This document shows, one piece after another, positions 1 to 62,948 of a stretch of 64,000 nucleotides of DNA. The DNA is from Allomuricauda ruestringensis DSM 13258 (lineage in GTDB: Bacteria > Bacteroidota > Bacteroidia > Flavobacteriales > Flavobacteriaceae). The notes beneath the pieces are model-generated. The model had not been told where the DNA came from. It was given only the letters and a program-made list of their open reading frames with translations, and did no database searches. The DNA lies in contig NC_015945.1 of the NCBI RefSeq assembly GCF_000224085.1, forward strand, positions 2,596,501 through 2,660,500, read 5' to 3'. Position numbers and translations under genes: made by a program. The stretch's first letter is position 1, and each line of letters starts with the position of its first letter.

Positions 1-1
1 A

Positions 2-145
2 TCCACTGTGGGACAATACCAAACCAATAAGGCCTATGAGATGGTCGAAACGTATTTATCACAACATCCTGATATGGAGCCATCGTTAAAGGGCAAGCTT
101 TTGCAGGCTTCGGATGATCTGTATCGTTTTGTAAATCAGGAGTAA
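2..145 (+). CDS. C-terminal fragment of an unrecognised protein (truncated by window edge)
   Basis: Frame 2 is open from the window edge to a TAA at 143-145 and gives 47 residues, ending in DLYRFVNQE. The piece is rich in charged and helix-favouring residues and shows no motif that I recognise, so no function is given. The start lies outside the window. Its last third has a second, diverged DNA copy at 2230-2280 (46 of 51 bases identical to 81-131), which lies in a non-coding scar. That duplication shows that this gene end took part in a local rearrangement. Confidence 0.6.
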   Translation, partial: STVGQYQTNKAYEMVETYLSQHPDMEPSLKGKLLQASDDLYRFVNQE

Positions 146-292
146 AGGCAATTTTTCTTCGTATTATGTGACTTTAGTTACAAGGAAATCACTCTAAATA
201 GTTGTTTTTCAATGTCTTGATGACGAGGATCATTGTATTCTTATAGCAGTGGCCATACTTTAGTTCCAATAAATTTTATAAATACGAGTACC

Positions 293-973
293 ATGAAAAA
301 GATTTTAATGTTGGTGTTCGTTGTTCTTGGAACAATGACACTGATGGCACAGGACAGGGATAGGGACAGAGTCCAAGATTCCGATCAAGATCGAGACCGT
401 TTAATGCTGATCGATGGCGATGTACTTCAAATTCGAGATCGAGACCAGATGCGTTTGCAAGACCCCATTACGTTGAACGATGGAACGGTTGTTAATCCAA
501 ATGGAATCTATTTTACCCGAGATCGAGACAGACTTAGGTTAAAAGATGGTGAATGTTTGGATAGTGATGGAATTAAATATCGCAATGAGTATCAGTATCG
601 TTACAAAGTAATGCAAGCTGATAAAGGACTTACCGATGCACAGATTCAACAACGCAACCAAAACAGGTATCAATTGATGCTGATTGACGGAGATGTATAT
701 CAAATCAGAACACAGTCGCAAAATAGATTACAACAGCGACTTGAACTTGCAGATGGGACCACGGTTAATCCAGACGGTACCTACATGAATCAAAATCGTC
801 AGCAATTGAGGCTTCAAGACGGTGAATGTTTGAATTTGAATGGTGAAAAGTTCACAAACATGTACAAGCATCGTAAAATGATGGTAAACAAGAATATGAA
901 GTCCATCAAAAACATGAAGTCTAAAAAGTCCATGAACAAATCAGCCCTTAAGAAAAAAGGGGGCGTCATGTGA
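293..973 (+). CDS. Secreted DUF6799 protein with two repeats and a basic tail
   Basis: Protein of 226 residues starting at ATG 293; an upstream TTG at 233 would add 20 residues before an obvious signal peptide, so 293 is preferred. Residues 1-20 are a Sec signal ending LMAQ. Residues 21-36 are almost only Asp and Arg (DRDRDR type). Two homologous repeats follow at about 36-96 and 127-187, each with the pattern LMLIDGDV.QIR, then DGT.VNP.G, then RL.DGECL. This matches the DUF6799 type of repeat known from Bacteroidota (family assignment from memory). The tail 191-226 is rich in Lys and Met. Role unknown; a periplasmic or surface protein is likely. A weak promoter-like pair (TTG at 233, TACTTTAG at 256) lies upstream. 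Confidence 0.8.
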   Translation: MKKILMLVFVVLGTMTLMAQDRDRDRVQDSDQDRDRLMLIDGDVLQIRDRDQMRLQDPITLNDGTVVNPNGIYFTRDRDRLRLKDGECLDSDGIKYRNEYQYRYKVMQADKGLTDAQIQQRNQNRYQLMLIDGDVYQIRTQSQNRLQQRLELADGTTVNPDGTYMNQNRQQLRLQDGECLNLNGEKFTNMYKHRKMMVNKNMKSIKNMKSKKSMNKSALKKKGGVM

Positions 974-1041
974 TGATACTGGATATAGGGTTTGATCAAT
1001 AGTATATGGTCGGGCCCTTGTTCTTTCTTAATTGATTTATC

Positions 1042-1950
1042 ATGAAACGGTATGTACTCTTAAGTGTAATCTTGTGTTTAGGTGCCATAATGGGTGCATT
1101 TGGACAAAAGACCAATAAGGAAAAGGCCAATAGGGAAGATTCTTATGTTTTGATGGATGTAAGTTATATGAACGATGCGGTATTTATGGGTAGGCGAGAT
1201 TCCATAACCGCTCCGTACCTATTGCCATCCATTGGATATTATGACAAATCGGGACTGTTTGTTGATGCCACTGTATCCTATCTTACAAGTTCAGACGAGC
1301 AACGCGTGGACCTTTTTTATTTAACCGGAGGGTATTTGTTTGATTCCAATAATTGGAGCGGAGGTGTTTCCGGAACGGCTTATTTTTACAATGAAGATAG
1401 TTATAATGTACAATCCGAGGTGGTCGCGGATATTACGGGATTGATCAGTTACGATTTTAAATTGCTGGAACTATCGCTCTACGCCAGTTCATATTTTAAT
1501 AAGAATAGCTCACCCGATATTTTTTTAGGTTTTATGGCCGATCATACCTTTAGGGCATTTGACGATCATTTATTGTTTGCCCCCCGATTTTCGGTATTTG
1601 CAGGATCCCAATACTTTTATGAAGAATACTACACTACCAGTCGATTGGGCAATAGAAAAAGCAGTGGTGGACAGGGCAGTGGTCCAGGGGGTTCTGTTGG
1701 CCCGGGAACCGAAATTACGACCGTGCAAATTGCAGAGGCATCTGAATTCAATGTACTCAATATGGAACTAGGCTTTCCTTTCCAATATCATTTCGACCAA
1801 TTTATTTTGTCGTTTACACCTAGTTGGGCATTTCCCCAGACTCCTGCAACCCTCACAACAGATACGGGTACATTTGAAGAGGATTTGGAGAATGTATTTT
1901 ATTGGTCCGTGGGCTTAAGCTACTGGTTCAATACAAATAAGAAGAAATAA
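1042..1950 (+). CDS. Predicted outer-membrane beta-barrel protein, function unknown
   Basis: Protein of 302 residues. A signal peptide (residues 1-22, ending GAFGQ) is followed by alternating hydrophobic/polar stretches rich in Tyr, Phe and Gly, typical of outer-membrane beta-strands; the C-terminal strand contains YWSVGLSYWF. A Gly/Ser-rich insert (SSGGQGSGPGGS) around residues 210-224 looks like a flexible surface or periplasmic loop. It follows the DUF6799 gene on the same strand after 68 bases and may be cotranscribed with it. No substrate can be inferred. Confidence 0.75.
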   Translation: MKRYVLLSVILCLGAIMGAFGQKTNKEKANREDSYVLMDVSYMNDAVFMGRRDSITAPYLLPSIGYYDKSGLFVDATVSYLTSSDEQRVDLFYLTGGYLFDSNNWSGGVSGTAYFYNEDSYNVQSEVVADITGLISYDFKLLELSLYASSYFNKNSSPDIFLGFMADHTFRAFDDHLLFAPRFSVFAGSQYFYEEYYTTSRLGNRKSSGGQGSGPGGSVGPGTEITTVQIAEASEFNVLNMELGFPFQYHFDQFILSFTPSWAFPQTPATLTTDTGTFEEDLENVFYWSVGLSYWFNTNKKK

Positions 1951-1955
1951 GGTTT

Positions 1956-2198
1956 CTATTTTCTTTTGGGCAAATACAGTTCATAGGTTTCGGTCTCTGT
2001 GGTTATCCTATCCAAGTGCTCATAAAGGATTTATACTTCATTAAAAAATGAATGTAGACAAAACCATCTGTATGTGTAAAAATTCCTTGGTGATGCTCGG
2101 AATAAAACCCAATGAATTCCCCTTTGATATTTTCAAATGAAAACTTTTGTGATTTTACACCCTCACGGTAACCTTTCACTTCGGGCAAACGAAGGGTA
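1956..2198 (-). pseudogene. Truncated, frameshifted remnant, possibly acetolactate decarboxylase-like C-terminus
   Basis: Reading the minus strand from 2197 gives clearly protein-like sequence (LRLPEVKGYREGV, then FENIKGEFIGFYSEHHQG, then IFTHTDGFVYIHFL). At about 2020-2022 the frame must shift by one base to continue as EHLDRITTETETYEL, ending LPKRK and TAG at 1956-1958. The GFYS..HQG.FTH....HIHF arrangement reminds me of the C-terminal part of alpha-acetolactate decarboxylase-like proteins of Bacteroidota; this is a recollection, not a search. There is no start codon: coding similarity stops exactly at 2198, where a copied piece of the flavoprotein gene begins. It is therefore a dead gene end. 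Confidence 0.6.
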
Positions 2199-2280
2199 AC
2201 AATATGGGAAAGAATAAGACATACGATGTTATCATTAAAGGGCAAACTTTTGCAGGCTTCGGATGATTTGTATCGTGTTG
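2199..2280 (+). repeat. Mosaic scar: copies of two neighbouring gene ends joined together
   Basis: Bases 2199-2237 match 2821-2859 at 37 of 39 positions, that is, the last bases of the leader plus the first codons of the flavoprotein gene. Bases 2230-2280 match 81-131 at 46 of 51 positions, that is, the 3' part of the gene at the left edge. The two copies meet in a short shared stretch (ATCATTAAAGG against ATCGTTAAAGG). The fused reading frame starts at ATG 2204 and stops after 20 codons at TGA. The rest of this gene-free stretch (2281-2371) shows nothing that I recognise. Confidence 0.8.
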
Positions 2281-2371
2281 GGATAGAGCGAGCCAATCTT
2301 CATGGATTTGATGGATGTTTATTTTAATTATGGAATAGATTTTAGTATTCCACATACTCCTAGATGCAGCA

Positions 2372-2746
2372 CTATGAACAATCCACACAAGTACCCGTTA
2401 AAACACAGTTGACACTTTCTACTTTATAACCCATAGGCAATGAAAAATCAACTTTTTCTTCTAAACAAACTATAGTTTGGCAACTGGTACAACGAAAGTG
2501 GAAGTGGCTATCTGCTAAGGTCTTCCCATCACAGTCCATGCAGATTGCAAAATACTGCTTACCGTTCTCTGCTACAATATTGTGAACCAGACCATCTTCA
2601 CAAAACCGGTTTAAGATTCTGTATATGGTTGCCCTGTTGATATCTATATCGATCTTGTCCTCAATTGCATCATGGCTCATGGCCTTGCCACTCCGAGATA
2701 ATAAATCCAAGATCGCTTGTTTTGTTGGTGTGCTTCTTCTTTTCAT
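2372..2746 (-). CDS. Fur-family metal-responsive transcriptional repressor
   Basis: Protein of 124 residues, slightly short for Fur/Zur/PerR. Residues 1-60 form the winged helix (IYRILNRFCEDGLV is the typical recognition and wing part). The dimerisation domain carries H81, H83, C86 and C89 in HFHFRCTSC, and C120/C123 in CVDCS, which fits a structural zinc site made of two CxxC pairs. The gene is divergent from the flavoprotein/MerC pair, with 79 bases between start codons and a palindrome there. This suggests local autoregulation and control of that pair. Which metal or signal it senses (Zn, Fe, peroxide, Hg) cannot be told from sequence. Confidence 0.88.
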   Translation of the reverse strand: MKRRSTPTKQAILDLLSRSGKAMSHDAIEDKIDIDINRATIYRILNRFCEDGLVHNIVAENGKQYFAICMDCDGKTLADSHFHFRCTSCQTIVCLEEKVDFSLPMGYKVESVNCVLTGTCVDCS

Positions 2747-2756
2747 AAATTATTAA

Positions 2757-2771
2757 TGCGACATTGTTGCA
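2757..2771. promoter_or_regulatory. Candidate operator for the Fur-family repressor
   Basis: TGCGACATTGTTGCA is a near-perfect 15-base dyad (one imperfect pair besides the centre), and flanking AT bases (TTATTA.., ..ATAATA) extend it. It lies 11 bases upstream of the repressor start codon and overlaps the -33 element of the opposite gene. TGC-ACA/TGT-GCA dyads of this size fit dimeric Fur-family binding; the assignment is inference from position and symmetry. Confidence 0.55.
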
Positions 2772-2796
2772 ATAATATAAATTATTCATAAGTTTG
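2767..2796 (+). promoter_or_regulatory. Flavobacterial promoter of the flavoprotein-MerC operon
   Basis: TTG at 2767-2769 and TAAGTTTG at 2789-2796 are separated by 19 bases, an exact match to the Bacteroidota TTG-N19-TAnnTTTG pattern. The start codon follows 30 bases after the -7 element. The TTG is inside the right arm of the dyad at 2757-2771, so a bound repressor would hide it. Confidence 0.6.
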
Positions 2797-2825
2797 ACAA
2801 ATATTATAGCCTTACAAGTCACAAT

Positions 2826-3734
2826 ATGGGAAAGAATAAAATATACGATGTTATCATTATAGGAGGGAGTTATGCAGGGCTTTCGGCAGCTATGGCCCTC
2901 GGAAGGTCGTTAAGACAAACCTTGGTCATTGATGGGGGCGAGCCATGTAATAGGCAAACCCCGCACTCCCAAAATTTTTTGACGCAAGATGGAAAACCTC
3001 CCAAGGAGATTGCCGACCTCGCAACAAAGCAGGTTCAGGACTATGAAAGTGTTGTCTTTTTTAAAGGCTTCGCATTCAAAGTAAATACCTCTACAAGTGG
3101 TTTTCTTGTTCGTACAGATACAGGGGATGTTTTTGAGGGAAAGAAATTGATTATGGCCACGGGCATCAAGGATTTGATGCCTCAAATTCCAGGTTTTCGG
3201 GAATGTTGGGGGATTTCCGTGATACACTGTCCCTATTGCCATGGGTATGAATACCGCGGAAAAAAAACAGGGATATGGGCGCCGGCAGCAAAAGCATTTC
3301 ATTTGGCTCCGTTGTTGCTCAACCTTACCGACGATCTTACCCTACTAGGCCAAGAAGTGTCAAATTTTACCGAAGAAGAGGTGAAAACACTCCAAAAACA
3401 CGGTGTTAAAATGGTAAACCATAATGTTATGGCCATTGAACATAACAATGGATACCTCCATAAAGTGGTCCTTGATAATGGGGATAAAATTTCCTTTTCG
3501 GCCGTTTATGCAGGTGTTCCATTTGAACAAAGTTCGGATATTCCCGAAACGCTGGGCTGCGAACTTACGGAACATGGGTTTATCAAAACCGACCATTTTC
3601 AGAAGACCACTGTGCCTGGAGTGTTTGCTTGCGGGGATAACAGTATCCGTATGCGATCAGTTGCCCAGGCTGTGGCATCAGGTAACTTGGCAGGTGCCAT
3701 GGCCAATATGGAACTTTCAAAAGAATCTTTTTAA
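2826..3734 (+). CDS. Thioredoxin-reductase-like FAD-dependent oxidoreductase with CPYC centre
   Basis: Protein of 302 residues, the size of bacterial thioredoxin reductase. The N-terminal FAD dinucleotide fold is clear (GGSYAG at 13-18), C135/C138 form a CPYC redox pair in HCPYCHGYE, and the C-terminal FAD motif is FACGDN. The second nucleotide-binding loop, expected near residue 150 as GxGxxG/A, reads GIWAPAAKAFH and lacks the glycine pattern, so NADPH use is doubtful. It stands between a divergent Fur-type regulator and a MerC gene 9 bases downstream. A role in thiol or metal stress is inferred. No thioredoxin gene is adjacent. A short copy of its 5' end lies at 2199-2237. Confidence 0.85.
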   Translation: MGKNKIYDVIIIGGSYAGLSAAMALGRSLRQTLVIDGGEPCNRQTPHSQNFLTQDGKPPKEIADLATKQVQDYESVVFFKGFAFKVNTSTSGFLVRTDTGDVFEGKKLIMATGIKDLMPQIPGFRECWGISVIHCPYCHGYEYRGKKTGIWAPAAKAFHLAPLLLNLTDDLTLLGQEVSNFTEEEVKTLQKHGVKMVNHNVMAIEHNNGYLHKVVLDNGDKISFSAVYAGVPFEQSSDIPETLGCELTEHGFIKTDHFQKTTVPGVFACGDNSIRMRSVAQAVASGNLAGAMANMELSKESF

Positions 3735-3743
3735 ACAAATTCA

Positions 3744-4130
3744 ATGAAGATAAAAAGTCCAACTTTTGATATCATAGCCCTTTTTAGTTCCCTTATATGC
3801 GCCGTTCATTGTGCGGCTGCACCCATTGTGCTATCATTCTCATCCTTATCCAGTCTACATTTTTTACACAGTCCACTTATTGAATGGTTGTTTATCGGGC
3901 TTGGTGTTGTATTTGTATTTGTTACCCTTTGGCCAAGTTATAAAAAAGTACACCATAACGCTAGAACTTTGCTTATTGCCGCCCTTGGTTTTGGTATAAT
4001 TGCACTGGGCAGATTAGATTTCAGTGAAACTTGGGAAGTCATAAATACGGTGTTTGGAGCCATCATGGTCTCTGTGGCCCATTTTATAAACTGGAGGCTG
4101 TTGCGTTTTAGGGGAGGACATAAACATTAA
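3744..4130 (+). CDS. MerC-domain integral membrane protein
   Basis: Protein of 128 residues with four predicted transmembrane helices. C19 and C23 flank H22 in LICAVHCAA within the first helix, the thiol site typical of the MerC family, and the C-terminus ends GHKH. Classical MerC carries mercuric ions across the inner membrane, but in flavobacteria MerC-domain genes usually sit without merA, often beside a Fur-type regulator as here, so a more general soft-metal role is possible. It begins 9 bases after the flavoprotein stop and is almost certainly cotranscribed with it. Confidence 0.85.
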   Translation: MKIKSPTFDIIALFSSLICAVHCAAAPIVLSFSSLSSLHFLHSPLIEWLFIGLGVVFVFVTLWPSYKKVHHNARTLLIAALGFGIIALGRLDFSETWEVINTVFGAIMVSVAHFINWRLLRFRGGHKH

Positions 4131-4233
4131 AGTGCCCGGGGGACAGACTTGATTATAATTTTAGCATCGATTTAACCATGTTTTGATGGGGAGAATGTGC
4201 AAAAATATAAGAAACAGCACCTTGTAGTATTTT

Positions 4234-4695
4234 CTATGTACACAGTTTATGGGAAAGCCCTTCATTGGTCTTGCAAATATTGTCCCATATTTTTCTAAAC
4301 TTTATTTCGTCTGGAACATAGAAAATCAATTCTTTTTTGTTTTTCCTCAACAATATGGCATTTCGTTTCTTTTCCCATGGAAAATAGCTTTCATGATCTG
4401 TGATGTAATCTAACCTGGTGATTTTGGCAATTGCTATTGTTCTTCTCCCAATGGGAAATATCAGTACTTTCTTTTTAATCACCAGTTTGCCACAATCGAT
4501 AATGATTTGATAGCGGCCCAATAGCATCCATATAGCACCAATACCAAACCACAGCCACAGAATCAAAAGCAAGAACAAGGTGATGTTAAACCCTTCGTAA
4601 AGGATTTTTTCAGCCATAAGTAAAGCCATGGCCAGTAAAAATAAGCGAACAAGTGTTGATATCAGGTTAAAATAACTTCGGTATTCCAATCTCAT
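4234..4695 (-). CDS. Small membrane protein, possibly PH-like cytoplasmic domain
   Basis: Protein of 153 residues from ATG 4695 (a TTG two codons upstream is possible). Two transmembrane helices lie at about 15-32 and 38-58 and are followed by a beta-rich soluble part (YQIIIDCGKLVIKKKVLIF, then RRTIAIAKITRLDY). That order, a helix pair and then a strand series with a basic turn, resembles bacterial PH-like membrane proteins, but I cannot confirm the family. The gene is AT-rich relative to its neighbours. It is followed upstream on the same strand by another small membrane protein after 71 bases. Function unknown. Confidence 0.65.
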   Translation of the reverse strand: MRLEYRSYFNLISTLVRLFLLAMALLMAEKILYEGFNITLFLLLILWLWFGIGAIWMLLGRYQIIIDCGKLVIKKKVLIFPIGRRTIAIAKITRLDYITDHESYFPWEKKRNAILLRKNKKELIFYVPDEIKFRKIWDNICKTNEGLSHKLCT

Positions 4696-4766
4696 ACACA
4701 AATCTTCACATTTTTAGGTTCATTATGTAGATGTGATGTTGCTTTGTTATTCAAAATAGGTATCAT

Positions 4767-5168
4767 TTAAAATGGAGGTGTTTCCCAAGTACATGTTGTA
4801 CAGTTCAGTAAGCTATCTGGTATGGGTTTGTCCATATAAATCTTGTTGAACGTTGGTTTGTCGATACTGTACTTGACCAAGAATTTTTTCCCGACAAGGG
4901 TTTTCATTTTCAAATAGTGGTTCTCTCGGAATTTATAACCAAGGTTGTACTTTCCTTTATATTGTTCTTTTTTTACATTGAAATTGTACACTAGCCAACG
5001 CGACTCAGTCCCAACAATCCTATATTCAACTATTTTTGCAATGGTATACTTTGTATTGGTTCCTTGTACGAATTTTTTCTTCTGATAGTTTAAAAGAAGC
5101 AGGTAGGCTATTACGGTAAGGATACTGACCATTGGGAGAATAGTATAAATCAATTTGCTCAATTTCAT
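4767..5168 (-). CDS. Single-pass membrane protein of unknown function
   Basis: Protein of 133 residues from ATG 5168; an alternative start at 5243 would add 25 residues without a signal-like stretch ahead of the helix. One transmembrane helix at about residues 8-27 is followed by a beta-rich domain with the pattern VGKKFLVKYSIDKP, then DKPIPDSLLNC. This reminds me of a common flavobacterial hypothetical family whose ends read VGK.F.V.YS..NP....ILLD.PIPD. Two Cys close to the C-terminus (NCTTC) are notable. No role can be assigned. AT-rich, like its downstream neighbour. Confidence 0.65.
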   Translation of the reverse strand: MKLSKLIYTILPMVSILTVIAYLLLLNYQKKKFVQGTNTKYTIAKIVEYRIVGTESRWLVYNFNVKKEQYKGKYNLGYKFRENHYLKMKTLVGKKFLVKYSIDKPTFNKIYMDKPIPDSLLNCTTCTWETPPF

Positions 5169-5275
5169 GTGGTTTATAACCTTAAATGGATTCAGCACAA
5201 TTTTAAGTTCCCCTCTCTCGCTGCCGTACAAATGTATCGCCAAGTAGCAGCGAGATTGAGAAAATGAGCTCGGCT

Positions 5276-6352
5276 TTATTTACTCTCCTTAGATTCCATG
5301 GCCATTTCGCATCCATAATTGTCTGCAAAGAAATTGTCCAGTTCATCGGCTTTTAGGGCCAATTGTTTTACATTCTCCTTGATGGTTTCCTTATAATCTG
5401 TGAAAATATCTGAGATATGTGTTCGGTATGAAATAAAAATTTTGTTTTCATGTATGCCCAAATAATAAGGGGCCACCCTATTGCCCAATAGGTAGGGCAG
5501 TAAATCGTTGAGGTTCTGTTTGGGCAACTTGTTCAGTGGGGAAGTAACTATCAAATAATCCTTATTTAAAACAAAAATCCGGATGAGGGCACTCCCTTGG
5601 TGAAACTCCCAGAAATCCCTTCCGGCCCTTCCCAAAATGGGGTCTATGCCAAGTTCCGAGATAGCGCTTTCAGCAAATTGGGCAAAATCGCTTTTTTTGG
5701 ATTCCTCCCAAGCAGCGGAGTTGATGGTATTGCCGCAGTTTGAGCAGAACTCGGTGACTTCTTCAATATAGGTGTCGCAAGAGTTGCACTTAATCCTAAA
5801 AGAAGTTCCTTCTGCATTGGCAAAATCCTTCATTTCCTTGATCAAGTCGGAATGTTTAATACCAAAACCTACGTTGTCCGCATTGTTCAGCTTGGAAGTG
5901 GTAACACCAACGAGTACACCAGCTTCGTTGAGGATTGGCCCTCCGGAGTTGCCAGGATTGACTGCAGCATCCGTTTGAATGTAGCTTCGGTTTCCCACAG
6001 GCTGGCTTATCGATGAGATGATACCCTCTGTTATGGTAAAGGGCATACCAAAAGGATAACCGTTTATAAATACCTTTTGGGTATTGGTGAGCATGATTTC
6101 TTCTTGGAGCGAAACACCATGTTCTTTGTAGTCCATTTCCTCTGGATGAAGAAAAGCAAGGTCTGCCTCGGGATTGGCCATGATTACTTTTGCCACATAC
6201 CTGTCTTTTTTGTGATTTTCTACGGCTACCATTTTTTCACCTTGTACCACATGATAATTGGTGATGATATAACTGTGTCCGTTTATAATGAATCCGCTTC
6301 CTGTTCCCGAAGCTGTTATGACTTTAAATACTGATTTATGAATATTTTCCAT
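5276..6352 (-). CDS. Cytoplasmic trypsin-like serine protease with zinc ribbon and C-terminal chaperone-like domain
   Basis: Protein of 358 residues. Residues 1-180 are a trypsin/HtrA-type S1C fold with triad H34 (TNYHVV), D64 (EADLAF) and S136 (NPGNSGGPI). There is no signal peptide or membrane helix, so it should act in the cytoplasm, which is unusual for this family, and there is no PDZ domain. A zinc ribbon follows, with C189, C192, C203 and C206. Residues of about 225-350 (starting near ISELGIDPILGR) look like the YbjN/type III-chaperone fold by strand and helix order; that is a tentative reading. It is the second gene of a minus-strand pair, 17 bases behind the 390-residue protein. The substrate is unknown. 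Confidence 0.8.
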   Translation of the reverse strand: MENIHKSVFKVITASGTGSGFIINGHSYIITNYHVVQGEKMVAVENHKKDRYVAKVIMANPEADLAFLHPEEMDYKEHGVSLQEEIMLTNTQKVFINGYPFGMPFTITEGIISSISQPVGNRSYIQTDAAVNPGNSGGPILNEAGVLVGVTTSKLNNADNVGFGIKHSDLIKEMKDFANAEGTSFRIKCNSCDTYIEEVTEFCSNCGNTINSAAWEESKKSDFAQFAESAISELGIDPILGRAGRDFWEFHQGSALIRIFVLNKDYLIVTSPLNKLPKQNLNDLLPYLLGNRVAPYYLGIHENKIFISYRTHISDIFTDYKETIKENVKQLALKADELDNFFADNYGCEMAMESKESK

Positions 6353-6369
6353 GGGTATTTTATTAGTGG

Positions 6370-7542
6370 TTATCCAAACAATTTTGAGAAGAATCCCTTT
6401 TTGGAGCTGTTGTGCGATGCTGTTCCTACCGTGCCGTCCAAGAAACTGTGATATGTCTCCAATAACATCGGCGCCGCCTCATCAAGACTTTTTCCCGAAA
6501 CCTGTTCAAGTACGTTGTAGATGGCATTTTTGTGGTGTTCTTCTACATTAAAGCAGTAGATGATATACAAAAAGGAGTATTGCAGATAGTAGCAGAGCAT
6601 TAAGTCATCATTCTTTTGGACATAACTGTTCAGATTCTTCTCAAGACTTTTGGCATGCTGCTGCAAAATAGAGGAAGAACTTCTCGACTTTATGGAAATC
6701 AATGCCTCGGCATGATAAATGTTGTCCAAATATTCCTCTTTGGTCATTTCGCATAGTTTTTGCATAAAACCAAAGGATTTATCAACCCTTTGCTGAAATC
6801 CTAAGTTTCCATTCATAAGGGTGTTTACGTAGAATTCGAGCAGTGTCCTGAGACTGCCATGTACACAGGGAATGTTCACAATCTTTAGTATTGATATCAA
6901 CGAAATGTCCCACTGAAAATCGTTCCATCGCTTTTCTTGAAAAAGGGCGCTGTAATTTTTGTAGTCATCCAGGATATTCTCAATTTGAAGCCAAACCTGT
7001 TCCTTTTCTTCTGAAATCAATGGGGTTACTTTAGGCTCTTGGTAGAATTCAGCGTTATATTTTTCTATGAACTCATCGTCGTAATTGTCTGCACTTATGC
7101 AAATTTCCCTCAGCAAATAATAGATTTTGTAGGGTTGGCAAAGCTCTATCGGAGTTTTGTACTCGAACCAGAGCGTATCGTTGTGCAAAATAATCTGTGT
7201 CAGTTTCAAAGGATGAAAATTGACTTCGGCGACCTTTCTGTACAGGGCAACTTTGTTGGTATTCTCCGTTATTTTAAGAAAAGGTGCCTTAACGGAAAAA
7301 GTATCATCCGTTATAGTAATGTGGATTTCCGTGGAGCCTTGACTTTGGACGATCTCAATGTCCTTGTCAGTGTCCTTGCCCTTTAGCAATGCTGGATTGA
7401 TATAATTAATGGTCTCGACCAATGCCTTTTTGTAGTCTTTGGCATCATGTGCCTGTGTGGCCGTTTCCCAGTACGATACATCAATAAATGGCTCACCCTT
7501 ACTTTTAATAGGTCTTTGGAACCTAGGAAGTACGTGTTTCAT
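6370..7542 (-). CDS. Conserved hypothetical protein paired with the trypsin-like protease
   Basis: Protein of 390 residues without signal peptide or transmembrane helices. The N-terminal half (residues 15-165) has alternating strands and helices in an order that could be another YbjN/type III-chaperone-like domain. The C-terminal half is mostly helical, and the last residues are a Gly/Ser linker ending SSKKGFFSKLFG, a motif-like basic-hydrophobic tail. The gene directly precedes the protease gene (17-base gap), so the two are probably one transcript and may form a complex. I do not recognise the family. Confidence 0.7.
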   Translation of the reverse strand: MKHVLPRFQRPIKSKGEPFIDVSYWETATQAHDAKDYKKALVETINYINPALLKGKDTDKDIEIVQSQGSTEIHITITDDTFSVKAPFLKITENTNKVALYRKVAEVNFHPLKLTQIILHNDTLWFEYKTPIELCQPYKIYYLLREICISADNYDDEFIEKYNAEFYQEPKVTPLISEEKEQVWLQIENILDDYKNYSALFQEKRWNDFQWDISLISILKIVNIPCVHGSLRTLLEFYVNTLMNGNLGFQQRVDKSFGFMQKLCEMTKEEYLDNIYHAEALISIKSRSSSSILQQHAKSLEKNLNSYVQKNDDLMLCYYLQYSFLYIIYCFNVEEHHKNAIYNVLEQVSGKSLDEAAPMLLETYHSFLDGTVGTASHNSSKKGFFSKLFG

Positions 7543-7636
7543 AGATTTATAGGTTAAGAATTATAAAATCAGATTCGGATGAGGTTGAACCGCTGTTTTT
7601 GAAGAGGTTGTTGAAAACAGCAATGCTAATATCGTC

Positions 7637-7670
7637 TTTTTTTAATTAGTACCTATTCTAATTAAAAAAA
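7637..7670. terminator. Perfect AT-rich inverted repeat between two minus-strand units
   Basis: Arms of 13 bases at 7637-7649 (T-run then AATTAG) and 7658-7670 (CTAATT then A-run) pair perfectly around an 8-base loop. The dyad lies 42 bases past the stop of the S66 peptidase gene and about 95 bases ahead of the next minus-strand gene, so it could end the first transcript. It is weak for a terminator because it contains only two G-C pairs; a protein-binding dyad is the alternative. Confidence 0.4.
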
Positions 7671-7711
7671 TATAAGCGATGGTAAGCAATGGATTGTGGC
7701 TTGGGAGTTGG

Positions 7712-8764
7712 TTAACTCACCGCAGGCTCCATTAATCGTAGTTGTTTTTTATAGGCATTAAAGTAGGCCTCAATGCCTATGGGAAGGGTTGAATTTTGCG
7801 GTATGTGCCCAAAGCTCATACCGTAAGCGGCGGGAATGCCCAATGGGGAAACCCTGTCCATTATTACTTCCCTTAAGGTGAAATTTTCGGTTGTACGTTT
7901 ACGGTCGCACCCTTTGCAAACACCAAAAATGATTCCCTTGGCCTTGGTAAAGCTTTCAACATCGGCAAGTTGTGTGAGCATGCGATCTATACGATAAGGG
8001 GCTTCCTCCACATCTTCCAATAGTACCAATTTGTCCGTAAAGTCTATTTCATAAGGAGTTCCTATCATGGCGGCCACCAAGGTTAAACTACCTCCTACAA
8101 GTTCGCCCTGACCAACACCGGCGGTAATCGTATATCGGTAATATTCGCTGTTGCGGTATTGTTTTGGGTCTTTTAATATGGCATTTTTGATGGGCAGTGT
8201 TTGCTGTGGTTCCATCAACACTTTTTTGAAGTAAACCTGACTATACTCATCATCGAGTGTTTTTCCGACAGGTCCGTGAAAACCAATAAGACCGGTTTTT
8301 TTATAAATGGTATTGATCAATGCGGTGATGTCGCTAAAACCGATCAACGCCTTTGGATTGTTTGTGATGCAATCATAATCCAATAGGTCAAGGATACGGG
8401 TGCATCCATACCCGCCACGGGCACAGAGAATGGCATCAATGTCCGGGTTGGCAAACATTTCGTTCACATCTTTTGCGCGTTCTTCATCGGTATTGCTGAA
8501 ATAACCGTAATTACCTTTTATGCGGTCGGTGTGATAGGTCTTGAAACCCATTTTTTGCAGCGTGTCCAAAGCCAGAAAGAGTGCTTCCTTTTCTATGGCA
8601 AATCCAGGTGCGACAAGGCCAATGGTATCCCCAAGTTTTAATTTTTTGGGTTTAGTTTTGGGCTTGGGGTCGGGGAAATATTGATTGCCCCAAGTGGTTT
8701 GGTGTAAAAGGGTTGCAGCTCCCAGAGCTGTTGCCGATTTTAAAAAACTTCTTCTTTTGGACAT
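7712..8764 (-). CDS. LD-carboxypeptidase, peptidase family S66, Tat-type signal
   Basis: Protein of 350 residues from ATG 8764. Family S66 cleaves the L,D bond of peptidoglycan tetrapeptides during murein recycling. Visible marks: the ARGGYG loop, GFSDITALI with the nucleophilic Ser, and GHIPQNSTLPIG with the catalytic His near the C-terminus. The N-terminus SKRRSFLKSATALGAA is a twin-arginine-like signal, so export to the periplasm is likely, whereas the classical LdcA is cytoplasmic. A longer start at 8779 would place codons in an inverted repeat (8773-8785) that belongs to a dispersed element, which argues for 8764. Confidence 0.87.
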   Translation of the reverse strand: MSKRRSFLKSATALGAATLLHQTTWGNQYFPDPKPKTKPKKLKLGDTIGLVAPGFAIEKEALFLALDTLQKMGFKTYHTDRIKGNYGYFSNTDEERAKDVNEMFANPDIDAILCARGGYGCTRILDLLDYDCITNNPKALIGFSDITALINTIYKKTGLIGFHGPVGKTLDDEYSQVYFKKVLMEPQQTLPIKNAILKDPKQYRNSEYYRYTITAGVGQGELVGGSLTLVAAMIGTPYEIDFTDKLVLLEDVEEAPYRIDRMLTQLADVESFTKAKGIIFGVCKGCDRKRTTENFTLREVIMDRVSPLGIPAAYGMSFGHIPQNSTLPIGIEAYFNAYKKQLRLMEPAVS

Positions 8765-8771
8765 TATTGAA

Positions 8772-8858
8772 TCCCTCATTGAGGGTTTGATTCCCCGACG
8801 TTCACGTCGAAATGAATTAATTTTTTCGTTTGAATACCTCGTGGGCTTGCCTCGAAGT
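8772..8858 (-). repeat. Dispersed intergenic repeat element, copy A
   Basis: Contains the dyads CCCTCA/TGAGGG (8773-8785) and CGACGT/ACGTCG (8796-8809) and a block at 8831-8858 that, on the opposite strand, resembles 60621-60652 (the CTACCTCGGGGCAAGCCTCGG type). Such short dyad-rich elements between genes are common in flavobacterial genomes. It lies just upstream of the S66 gene start. No coding potential. Confidence 0.5.
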
Positions 8859-8915
8859 AGTTAATTTATCAATACAAAATATAAAAATGCACAAAATTTA
8901 GAAGAACAGCATCAA

Positions 8916-10235
8916 CTAATCACTGTTTCTTTCGTCTCTTCGTAATTGTCTTTGGATTTTTCTAATGGCCGATTCGATGGATTTTTCGGGTTCTATGATA
9001 TTGTATTCGCCCCAAAAATCAGGATCTGAGAAACCAGACGCCTCATCACTTAGAATAATGGATTTTTTGATTCTTTGGCGATATTTTGGTCTTTCGGTCT
9101 TGCTTACTCTTTCCCAATCGGTGATTGCCATTTCAGCCGTCATACTGTACTGTGAATTAAACCATTTATCGGCCCAGTCCACTTTAAATTCCATAAATAC
9201 ACTGCTATAGCCGTAATGCCATTTCCCATCTTTTTCTCGGTAATCAACACGGTAGGACACCTCTGTGGGCCACACATCCACTTTTGCGGGCTTTCTGCGC
9301 ACAAAAAGTTCCGCGGCTTTGTCCCTATCTGTAATGTTCAAGGAAAAAATGGCACCTGTTAAGATTTTATTCTCGACATCGATGTACAGTTCTCCGCGAT
9401 ATAACGGCTCCAAAATACCTTCATGCTGATTAAATTTGATGACGTAGATCAACCGGTCATTGGTCATTGTGGAACGATCAAAGATGAATTTGTAGTTGGA
9501 TAACGACTCTTCCGAGAATATATATTCCGGATATTTCATCATATCTACATACAAAGTGTTGTAAGGCCCCCCCTGAAGCTTTAGAGCCACGGTGTCCAAT
9601 TTGCTGTAATCGGTGCTTTTTCTCGCCTTGTAAAGCTCAACGGCATCATCCCGGGTGGAACTGTAAGGTGTTTTGTATATATTGACCACCGCTTCGGCCA
9701 AGGAAACATTTCTTCTTCGTCTTTTTATGGTTTCTCTATAGAAGGCCGTCATTAAAGCGGGATCTTCAAAATAATTCTCATCCCTGTTCTTTAGGGTCTC
9801 CTTAACCAAAGCCAATGCATCTTTTGGTGCATTCACATTGATTTCCGAAAGCCTTGTAACGGATACCTCTAGGGATATTTCGTTTTTTTCGCGCTCAAGG
9901 CTGGCAATGGGAACCTTTTTGGTTTTGTAGCCCAAAAATGAAACCACCACATTTTTGTCGATATATGCTTTGGGCACTTTTAAAAGAAAGTTTCCTTCTG
10001 TATTGGTAATGGTGCTAATGTTGGTACCTTCCACAGTGAGTGTGGCAAAAACCAAAGATTTATTGCTCGATGCTTCTTTGACCTCCCCACTGTACTCATT
10101 AAAATCGACCTCTACACCGTCTTGTTGGAAAGCAAAGGCCTCTCCTGGGCCTAGCAGTGCCATAGCGCATATTGCCGATAGCAATAATGCATTGTGCTTT
10201 AGGTTTAAAATCAATGATGGGATTCTCAGCGGCAT
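8916..10235 (-). CDS. CarboxypepD_reg-like domain protein, exported
   Basis: Protein of 439 residues. A long signal-like N-terminus (hydrophobic stretch at about 15-36) precedes a CarboxypepD_reg-like beta-sandwich at about 45-130 (EVKEASSNKSLVFATLTVEG, then NTEGNFLLKVP, then VVVSFLGYKTK), the same module that starts many TonB-dependent receptors. The remaining 300 residues have alternating charged and aromatic strands (for example KVDVWPTEVSYRVDYREKDG) but are too short for a receptor barrel. Known relatives are periplasmic or outer-membrane-associated proteins of unknown function. Monocistronic as far as can be seen. Confidence 0.8.
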   Translation of the reverse strand: MPLRIPSLILNLKHNALLLSAICAMALLGPGEAFAFQQDGVEVDFNEYSGEVKEASSNKSLVFATLTVEGTNISTITNTEGNFLLKVPKAYIDKNVVVSFLGYKTKKVPIASLEREKNEISLEVSVTRLSEINVNAPKDALALVKETLKNRDENYFEDPALMTAFYRETIKRRRRNVSLAEAVVNIYKTPYSSTRDDAVELYKARKSTDYSKLDTVALKLQGGPYNTLYVDMMKYPEYIFSEESLSNYKFIFDRSTMTNDRLIYVIKFNQHEGILEPLYRGELYIDVENKILTGAIFSLNITDRDKAAELFVRRKPAKVDVWPTEVSYRVDYREKDGKWHYGYSSVFMEFKVDWADKWFNSQYSMTAEMAITDWERVSKTERPKYRQRIKKSIILSDEASGFSDPDFWGEYNIIEPEKSIESAIRKIQRQLRRDERNSD

Positions 10236-62929: not shown

Positions 62930-62948
62930 ATGCAAGACAAGTTGCATA

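Follow-up and report, generated by a model that had tools for sequence, protein, structure and literature searches.

A scar of about 100 bases lies between a dead gene end and a trio of genes in the window (the whole stretch of 64,000 nucleotides that was analysed, part of the 3.84 Mb, single-contig genome of a marine flavobacterium), and it is a real product of sloppy DNA joining. From comparisons of this locus with itself and with its counterparts in related genomes, we propose, with a probability of roughly 0.4, that the scar is a non-functional mark at the boundary of two cargo cassettes stacked behind the same M1 aminopeptidase gene. The features of the locus are as follows (positions in the window; G001 and TY007 are the two other scar-bearing genomes).

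1..145, plus strand: 3' end of the M1-family aminopeptidase gene (PF01433; 851 aa in the genome), ending in ...DDLYRFVNQE*
82-131, within the M1 3' end: aminopeptidase stretch matched by the scar
293..973, plus strand: DUF6799 protein gene (PF20606), first cargo gene behind the aminopeptidase
1042..1950, plus strand: gene of a 302-aa protein without Pfam match, labelled OMP by us, second cargo gene
1956..2206, minus strand: 3' remnant of an acetolactate decarboxylase-like gene, with its frame broken near 2019 and its 5' part missing
2196..2241, plus strand: copy of the flavoprotein gene start (source 2818-2863)
2199..2206: join 1, ACAATATG, common to the flavoprotein start and five of the seven aligned decarboxylase relatives
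2204..2266, plus strand: chimeric 20-codon reading frame, not conserved in G001
2231..2241: join 2, where the flavoprotein start and the aminopeptidase end have ATCATTA, then three of four bases, in common
2231..2291, plus strand: putative second aminopeptidase 3' tail, with 2281-2291 leading up to the position of the stop in G001 and TY007
2292..2371: spacer between this tail and the Fur-family gene, common to the window genome, G001 and TY007
2372..2746, minus strand: Fur-family regulator gene (PF01475)
2826..3734, plus strand: thioredoxin-reductase-like flavoprotein gene (PF07992), with the source of the copy at its start
3744..4130, plus strand: MerC-family gene (PF03203)

In a search of the whole 3.84 Mb genome, positions 2196-2241 matched the flavoprotein start at 2818-2863 (91% identity; E 1.9e-11) and positions 2231-2280 matched the aminopeptidase end at 82-131 (46 of 50 bases; E 1.3e-13). 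Both matches are significant, and the identities of 37/39 and 46/51 that had been counted by eye for these segments in an earlier, sequence-only reading of this DNA agree with the printed sequence. When the 64 kb window was compared with itself (E<=1e-4), three matches were obtained, namely the two scar segments and a 32-base palindrome at 62946. The frameshifted minus-strand remnant noticed in the same reading is the 3' part of the acetolactate decarboxylase-like gene: it corresponds to residues ~151-236 of a 236-aa relative located at the same place and on the same strand, with 86% identity in the longer stretch, and the full-length relative matches PF03306, which makes the remnant a pseudogene of that family. 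The three pieces, said to meet without spacers, do adjoin; they do not abut exactly, and overlap instead by common bases at 2199-2206 (or slightly more) and at 2231-2241.

At join 1, the flavoprotein start reads ACAATATGGG where most of the aligned decarboxylase relatives (5/7) read ACAATATG; the closest decarboxylase relative, L018, and L052 differ by one base each. At join 2, the sequence common to the flavoprotein start and the aminopeptidase end is ATCATTA(T/A)AGG (seven exact bases, then 3/4), and the window genome's own M1 gene carries one more difference. In 200,000 random breakpoint pairs from positions 1-4200 of the window (pairs less than 30 apart being dropped), the chance per join was 1.2e-4 for at least eight common bases and 6.3e-4 for at least seven; the short common bases pointed out earlier are thus present at both readable joins, beyond chance, as in microhomology joints. 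Join 2 reads TT in the window genome and CC in both G001 and TY007, CC being the aminopeptidase sequence. If CC is original, the exact overlap at the break of join 2 would be about one base, with the 10/11 stretch located two bases away.

Three Allomuricauda/Flagellimonas-type genomes carry the scar: the window's own, the metagenome-assembled genome (MAG) of Allomuricauda sp. MCMED-G25 (G001, locus L106) and Muricauda sp. TY007 (locus L109). With positions 1951-4130 as the query, the scar was matched across in two of 71 genus genomes, the window's own (which is included in the 71) and G001, four candidates being scored per genome; TY007 matches positions 1-4262 of the window in one piece (89.7%). 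The joins are the same in all three aligned genomes, so the scar is no assembly error and predates their split. An assembly or chimera artefact has next to no probability, since the same joins stand in three separate assemblies, one of them a single complete contig and one a MAG, and nothing was found to speak in its favour. The decarboxylase gene is truncated in all three genomes, and no relative was found to have the same arrangement with intact genes. Its remnant has decayed differently in each of them (the frame is broken near 2019 in the window genome, G001 has an in-frame stop, and in TY007 the frame is open over the fragment), and the flavoprotein piece resembles its own source less in G001 (81% over 43 bases, E 5.7e-7) and TY007 (78% over 58 bases, E 5.7e-8) than in the window genome. 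Judging from the third codon positions of the OMP gene (0.85 for G001 versus TY007, 0.79 and 0.81 for the other pairs), G001 and TY007 look closer to each other than to the window genome. Further right, at 4262-7656, the window has four genes that are absent from G001 and TY007, where MerC is directly followed by the LD-carboxypeptidase gene: two are without Pfam match, one is trypsin-like (PF13365) and one has a TY-Chap1 match below cut-off. The trypsin-like and h390 genes also precede LD-carboxypeptidase in G015, G016 and G053.

The order M1 - DUF6799 - OMP - decarboxylase - ArsP occurs in G002, G018, G015 and G053; OsmC, thioredoxin-like, sigma-factor, NYN and TrmE genes then follow in G002 and G018, with fewer of these elsewhere. 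Several relatives have a full-length acetolactate decarboxylase at the locus, mostly followed by ArsP, and these genomes show the order without the module, as the sequence-only reading had expected of them. In G018, the decarboxylase is read in two pieces in different frames (L019:8049-8758), possibly a separate frame break. Among 25 OMP loci of named genomes (at most two per protein, several of them from the same genomes as the G-labelled ones), eight have a near-complete decarboxylase adjoining OMP (in two pieces in L108), two (L106 and L109) have the remnant only, with the flavoprotein gene behind it, and 15 have no decarboxylase at E<=1e-8, including L118, which extends just 0.4 kb past OMP. 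In the six relatives whose module neighbourhoods were read (G012, G016, G075, G009, G066 and G045), the module genes have other neighbours; Fur was not detected adjoining the flavoprotein gene in G075, G009 and G066, nor MerC there in G045. One of these, G075, combines a full-length decarboxylase behind M1 with a flavoprotein-MerC pair located elsewhere. These observations fit the suggestion that the scar is tied to the arrival of the Fur/flavoprotein/MerC module, in that the scar borders the module and the module genes are located elsewhere in these six relatives; what we read differently is the aminopeptidase piece.

The slot behind M1 holds different genes in different relatives. A close M1 match was found in 33 of the 71 genus genomes, and 30 of these loci (the window's own and that of G001 included) were classified according to which reference gene comes next: DUF6799 in 15 (in one case only at 1.1 kb), DUF4198-HupE in seven, TrmE in four, decarboxylase in two, Sig in one and none within 1.5 kb in one.

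The aminopeptidase piece of the scar had been taken for a 51-base copy of the end of the gene at the left edge of the window. The match itself stands, and the piece probably extends further, to about 2291: it reads on in frame to a stop in both sister genomes (FVGME* in G001, FVEME* in TY007), at the very length of their own FVNQE* tail, the stop being lost in the window genome. Furthermore, the second tail position is Met in none of 15 DUF6799-type M1 loci and in 12 of 15 loci with other cargo (Fisher p 1e-5, for an association noticed after the fact among related genomes, and hence no independent test). This pattern indicates that tails go with their cargo, and that the scar holds a tail of the non-DUF6799 type, even though DUF6799 follows the gene at 1-145. 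We therefore regard the third piece as probably not a copy of the genome's own peptidase end, and the displaced tail of a second allele as the more likely source, in which case one of the three joins may be no join at all. As a point on the other side, the core of the tail (51 bases) is most similar to the M1 genes of these genomes themselves (46/51 in the case of the TY007 piece and 45/51 in that of G001), the next best scores, 42 and 43/51, being to another DUF6799-type gene.

Our interpretation of the second tail has a parallel in Flagellimonas marinaquae, a single case (L115 and G054 are the same genome), where the order is M1 (tail KMK) - DUF4198 - HupE - decayed second M1 3' end - DUF6799 - OMP (region L115:6975-9130, cargo assigned with Pfam). 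The decayed end, at 8874-9095 of L115, matches the DUF6799-type locus L188 over all 257 query bases (74%), through the tail and the downstream spacer, whereas its match to L115's own M1 gene stops after 206 bases (77%). Read most simply, these alignments suggest that the inserted cargo brought a new tail and that the old one was pushed aside.

From the second tail, the F. marinaquae parallel and the gene orders, we propose the following course for the scar. The ancestor slot would have read M1 tail - spacer - Fur - flavoprotein - MerC. Another cassette, made up of DUF6799, OMP and decarboxylase, would have come in front with its own M1 tail, entering by an exchange in the M1 gene on one side and by a sloppy, short-homology join on the other, which would have cut the decarboxylase gene. 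The old M1 tail, belonging with the spacer and the Fur module, would have been pushed to the far side, where it decayed into what is now 2231-2291. The 40-base piece of flavoprotein start may have been added as filler, either by template switching or by a small tandem duplication that was later trimmed. The order of arrival and the filler mechanism are the most conjectural parts of this proposal, and the filler is left unexplained by its displaced-tail part. The proposal is consistent with the occurrence of the scar in three genomes, the variable slot, the in-frame second tail, the F. marinaquae case and the short homologies. Against it, no M1 - Fur - flavoprotein - MerC order was found among the 30 M1 loci (within 1.5 kb; a limited sample), and the closeness of the tail to the genomes' own M1 genes is what a plain copy would also give. 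Moreover, since the near relatives G002, G018, G015 and G053 carry DUF6799-OMP-decarboxylase, this would by parsimony be the older cargo and the Fur module the newcomer, which fits poorly with the stacking order that we propose.

Two other ways of making such a composite were weighed, and each has a foothold in the joins. Had a break occurred between the decarboxylase gene and an incoming module, a single episode of template switching (of the type of microhomology-mediated break-induced replication, MMBIR) could have copied first 40 bases located 0.6 kb downstream and next 50 bases located 2.1 kb upstream, before running into the module. Two short inserts matching nearby DNA, with common bases at the joins, are what this path would leave; the MMBIR paper describes insertions of nearby sequence at junctions, as well as stretches from elsewhere that follow microhomology junctions (PMC2621351), and short, linked, repair-mediated duplications are described in vertebrates (PMC2671141). 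Such a path would make the in-frame stop at native length a coincidence, and it has to accept that both inserts stand in direct orientation, a weak point (1 in 4 by chance if orientation is random), so that we hold it to be rather unlikely. The direct orientation of both pieces, together with the backward join from flavoprotein start to peptidase end, speaks instead for the fossil of a tandem duplication, in which the region from the aminopeptidase end to the flavoprotein start was duplicated through ATCATTA...AGG and each copy then suffered one deletion, the join point alone being spared. The succession of a forward, a backward and a forward join is that of a duplication join point between two deletions, the short direct repeats at joins 1 and 2 agree with it, and duplications and deletions at short direct repeats are reported as common in Salmonella cultures (PMC3411829). 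Yet a tandem duplication requires a third join at 2280/2281, where the sequence reads in frame to a native-length stop in two genomes, and no duplicated-gene intermediate was seen in the 71 genus genomes (four candidates each) or at the 25 OMP loci (at most two rows per protein), two overlapping sets, though such an intermediate may be extinct; a tandem duplication appears unlikely on balance.

The possibility that the scar is kept by selection, as a short peptide or as a regulatory site for the convergent genes, is very improbable. The chimeric 20-codon frame seen in the sequence-only reading is indeed present and open in the window genome, and TY007 keeps its start and stop; in G001 both the start codon and the stop are lost, which is why a functional peptide is not favoured. 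Of the segments compared among the three genomes, the 35-base flavoprotein piece is conserved best (0.91-0.94). Measured against the third codon positions of OMP (0.79-0.85), the decarboxylase remnant is slightly more alike (0.86-0.89), the peptidase piece is on a par (0.80-0.89) and the spacer falls below (0.76-0.79), a series that shows no consistent constraint, and Rfam gave no match in the window at gathering scores. The scar is probably not functional.

Searches for the origin of the sequence to the right of the 50 matched aminopeptidase bases, 2281-2371, gave no source in positions 1-2000 and 2801-9000 of the window on both strands, where nothing rose above 300 shuffles (in the best case, 12/300 were as good). 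Among other loci (L001 and L002 left out), E<0.01 was reached only at those of the three scar-bearing genomes, and a comparison with 28 M1 loci of relatives and six module loci reached no better E than 0.04. Downstream of Fur, G016 matches in the Fur gene end only, and G012 and G045 gave nothing beyond shuffles. With regard to the scar segments themselves, separated direct repeats of this kind (<=120 bp, E<=1e-8) were found in 12 of 58 loci with a length of 12 kb or more (1.02 Mb in total, counting overlapping sources), five of these being the scar itself and seven others; they are uncommon, and not unique, in the sampled loci.

The proposed stacking can be set beside several known systems. 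Genomic islands and cassettes leave displaced 3' ends of their target genes at insertion sites. A decayed second target 3' end beyond the new genes is plain in F. marinaquae and likely at the scar; here, in contrast to island insertion, the target is a protein gene, no integrase was found with Pfam among the neighbouring genes scanned, and there is an additional 40-base filler whose source lies within the adjoining cassette. A scan of the window for tRNA genes found none. Homology-facilitated illegitimate recombination of Acinetobacter, reportedly described by de Vries and Wackernagel in 2002, would give the layout of the scar from one homologous anchor (here M1) and one short-homology join; the event at the scar is deduced from sequence alone. 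In short-patch double illegitimate recombination, short intragenomic segments are placed at a foreign site and replace tens of bases, leaving the locus otherwise unchanged; the scar likewise holds short intragenomic segments, but the order of the locus has changed too. The MMBIR model, which draws on E. coli, yeast, Drosophila, mammalian and human cancer data (PMC2621351), resembles the scar in its short pieces of nearby sequence at a microhomologous junction, and differs in that replication at the scar is conjectural. The spontaneous rearrangements of Salmonella (PMC3411829) likewise have joins at short direct repeats, with 11-27 bp at the junctions of five verified duplications, but these were single events in cultures, whereas the scar is old, fixed and composite, with ~7-8 bp.

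Extending the proposal, we tentatively suggest that the M1 3' end is a recurrent landing site in the genus, where cassettes bring their own last M1 codons, swap the tail and leave a displaced one behind. The cargo at this site would be unrelated (DUF6799-OMP-decarboxylase, DUF4198-HupE, Fur-flavoprotein-MerC), and the scar would be the fossil of one stacking, with filler copied from the neighbouring cassette. Short composite joins are seldom legible once fixed. The present one can still be read in three genomes, its sources lying 0.6 and 2.1 kb off, and in F. marinaquae different cargo has displaced the tail of this same gene. Should tails prove to go with cargo, accessory genes might be exchanged by way of a gene end, no integrase being needed, and past cassette changes could be traced by the decayed tails. 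Our search of the literature, far from exhaustive, found no description of this locus.

On a larger scale, synteny is broken over a long range where the scar and the module lie. The genes to the right of the module (trypsin-like, h390, LD-carboxypeptidase onward) adjoin an aminotransferase gene (PF00202) in relatives; in the window genome, this gene ends near 2,483,453 and M1 starts at 2,594,090, ~111 kb on. This break at the right flank implies more than one rearrangement. A gene that we label glycosidase-like, near the left end of the intervening block, is ~105 kb from M1 in the window genome and ~93-99 kb from it in G018, G015 and G053; other parts of the left-end probe match other places in G018, G016, G015 and G075, and a mid-block probe gave a weak match only. 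Given these scattered and weak matches, a movement of the entire block is not demonstrated. A simple inversion is not favoured as the cause of the break, because the relative orientation of M1 and LD-carboxypeptidase is alike in G016, G018, G015 and the window genome.

Repeats and an RNA element were also observed. A dispersed palindromic repeat of ~110-150 bp, which we call MITE-like (ends GAGGCTGTCTAAAA / TTTTTAGACAGCCTC; L144:5471-5582, corresponding to ~2483470-2483582 of G000:C1), has one copy at the left border of the putatively moved block and no match in the 64 kb window. Its matches number 33 in the window genome (many being pieces of one copy), two in G001, two in G018 and none in G015 and G016, counts that include the query's own place and its G001 counterpart. 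Near the same left end, a TPP riboswitch (RF00059, just above gathering score; L144:6480-6585) precedes a gene labelled PnuC-like by us. At another synteny break of the window genome, a hairpin repeat that we call REP-like (L091:7816-7904) lies beside the sigma-factor gene; it is matched in G001, G018, G002 and G016, and by a single short stretch in each of G015 and G053.
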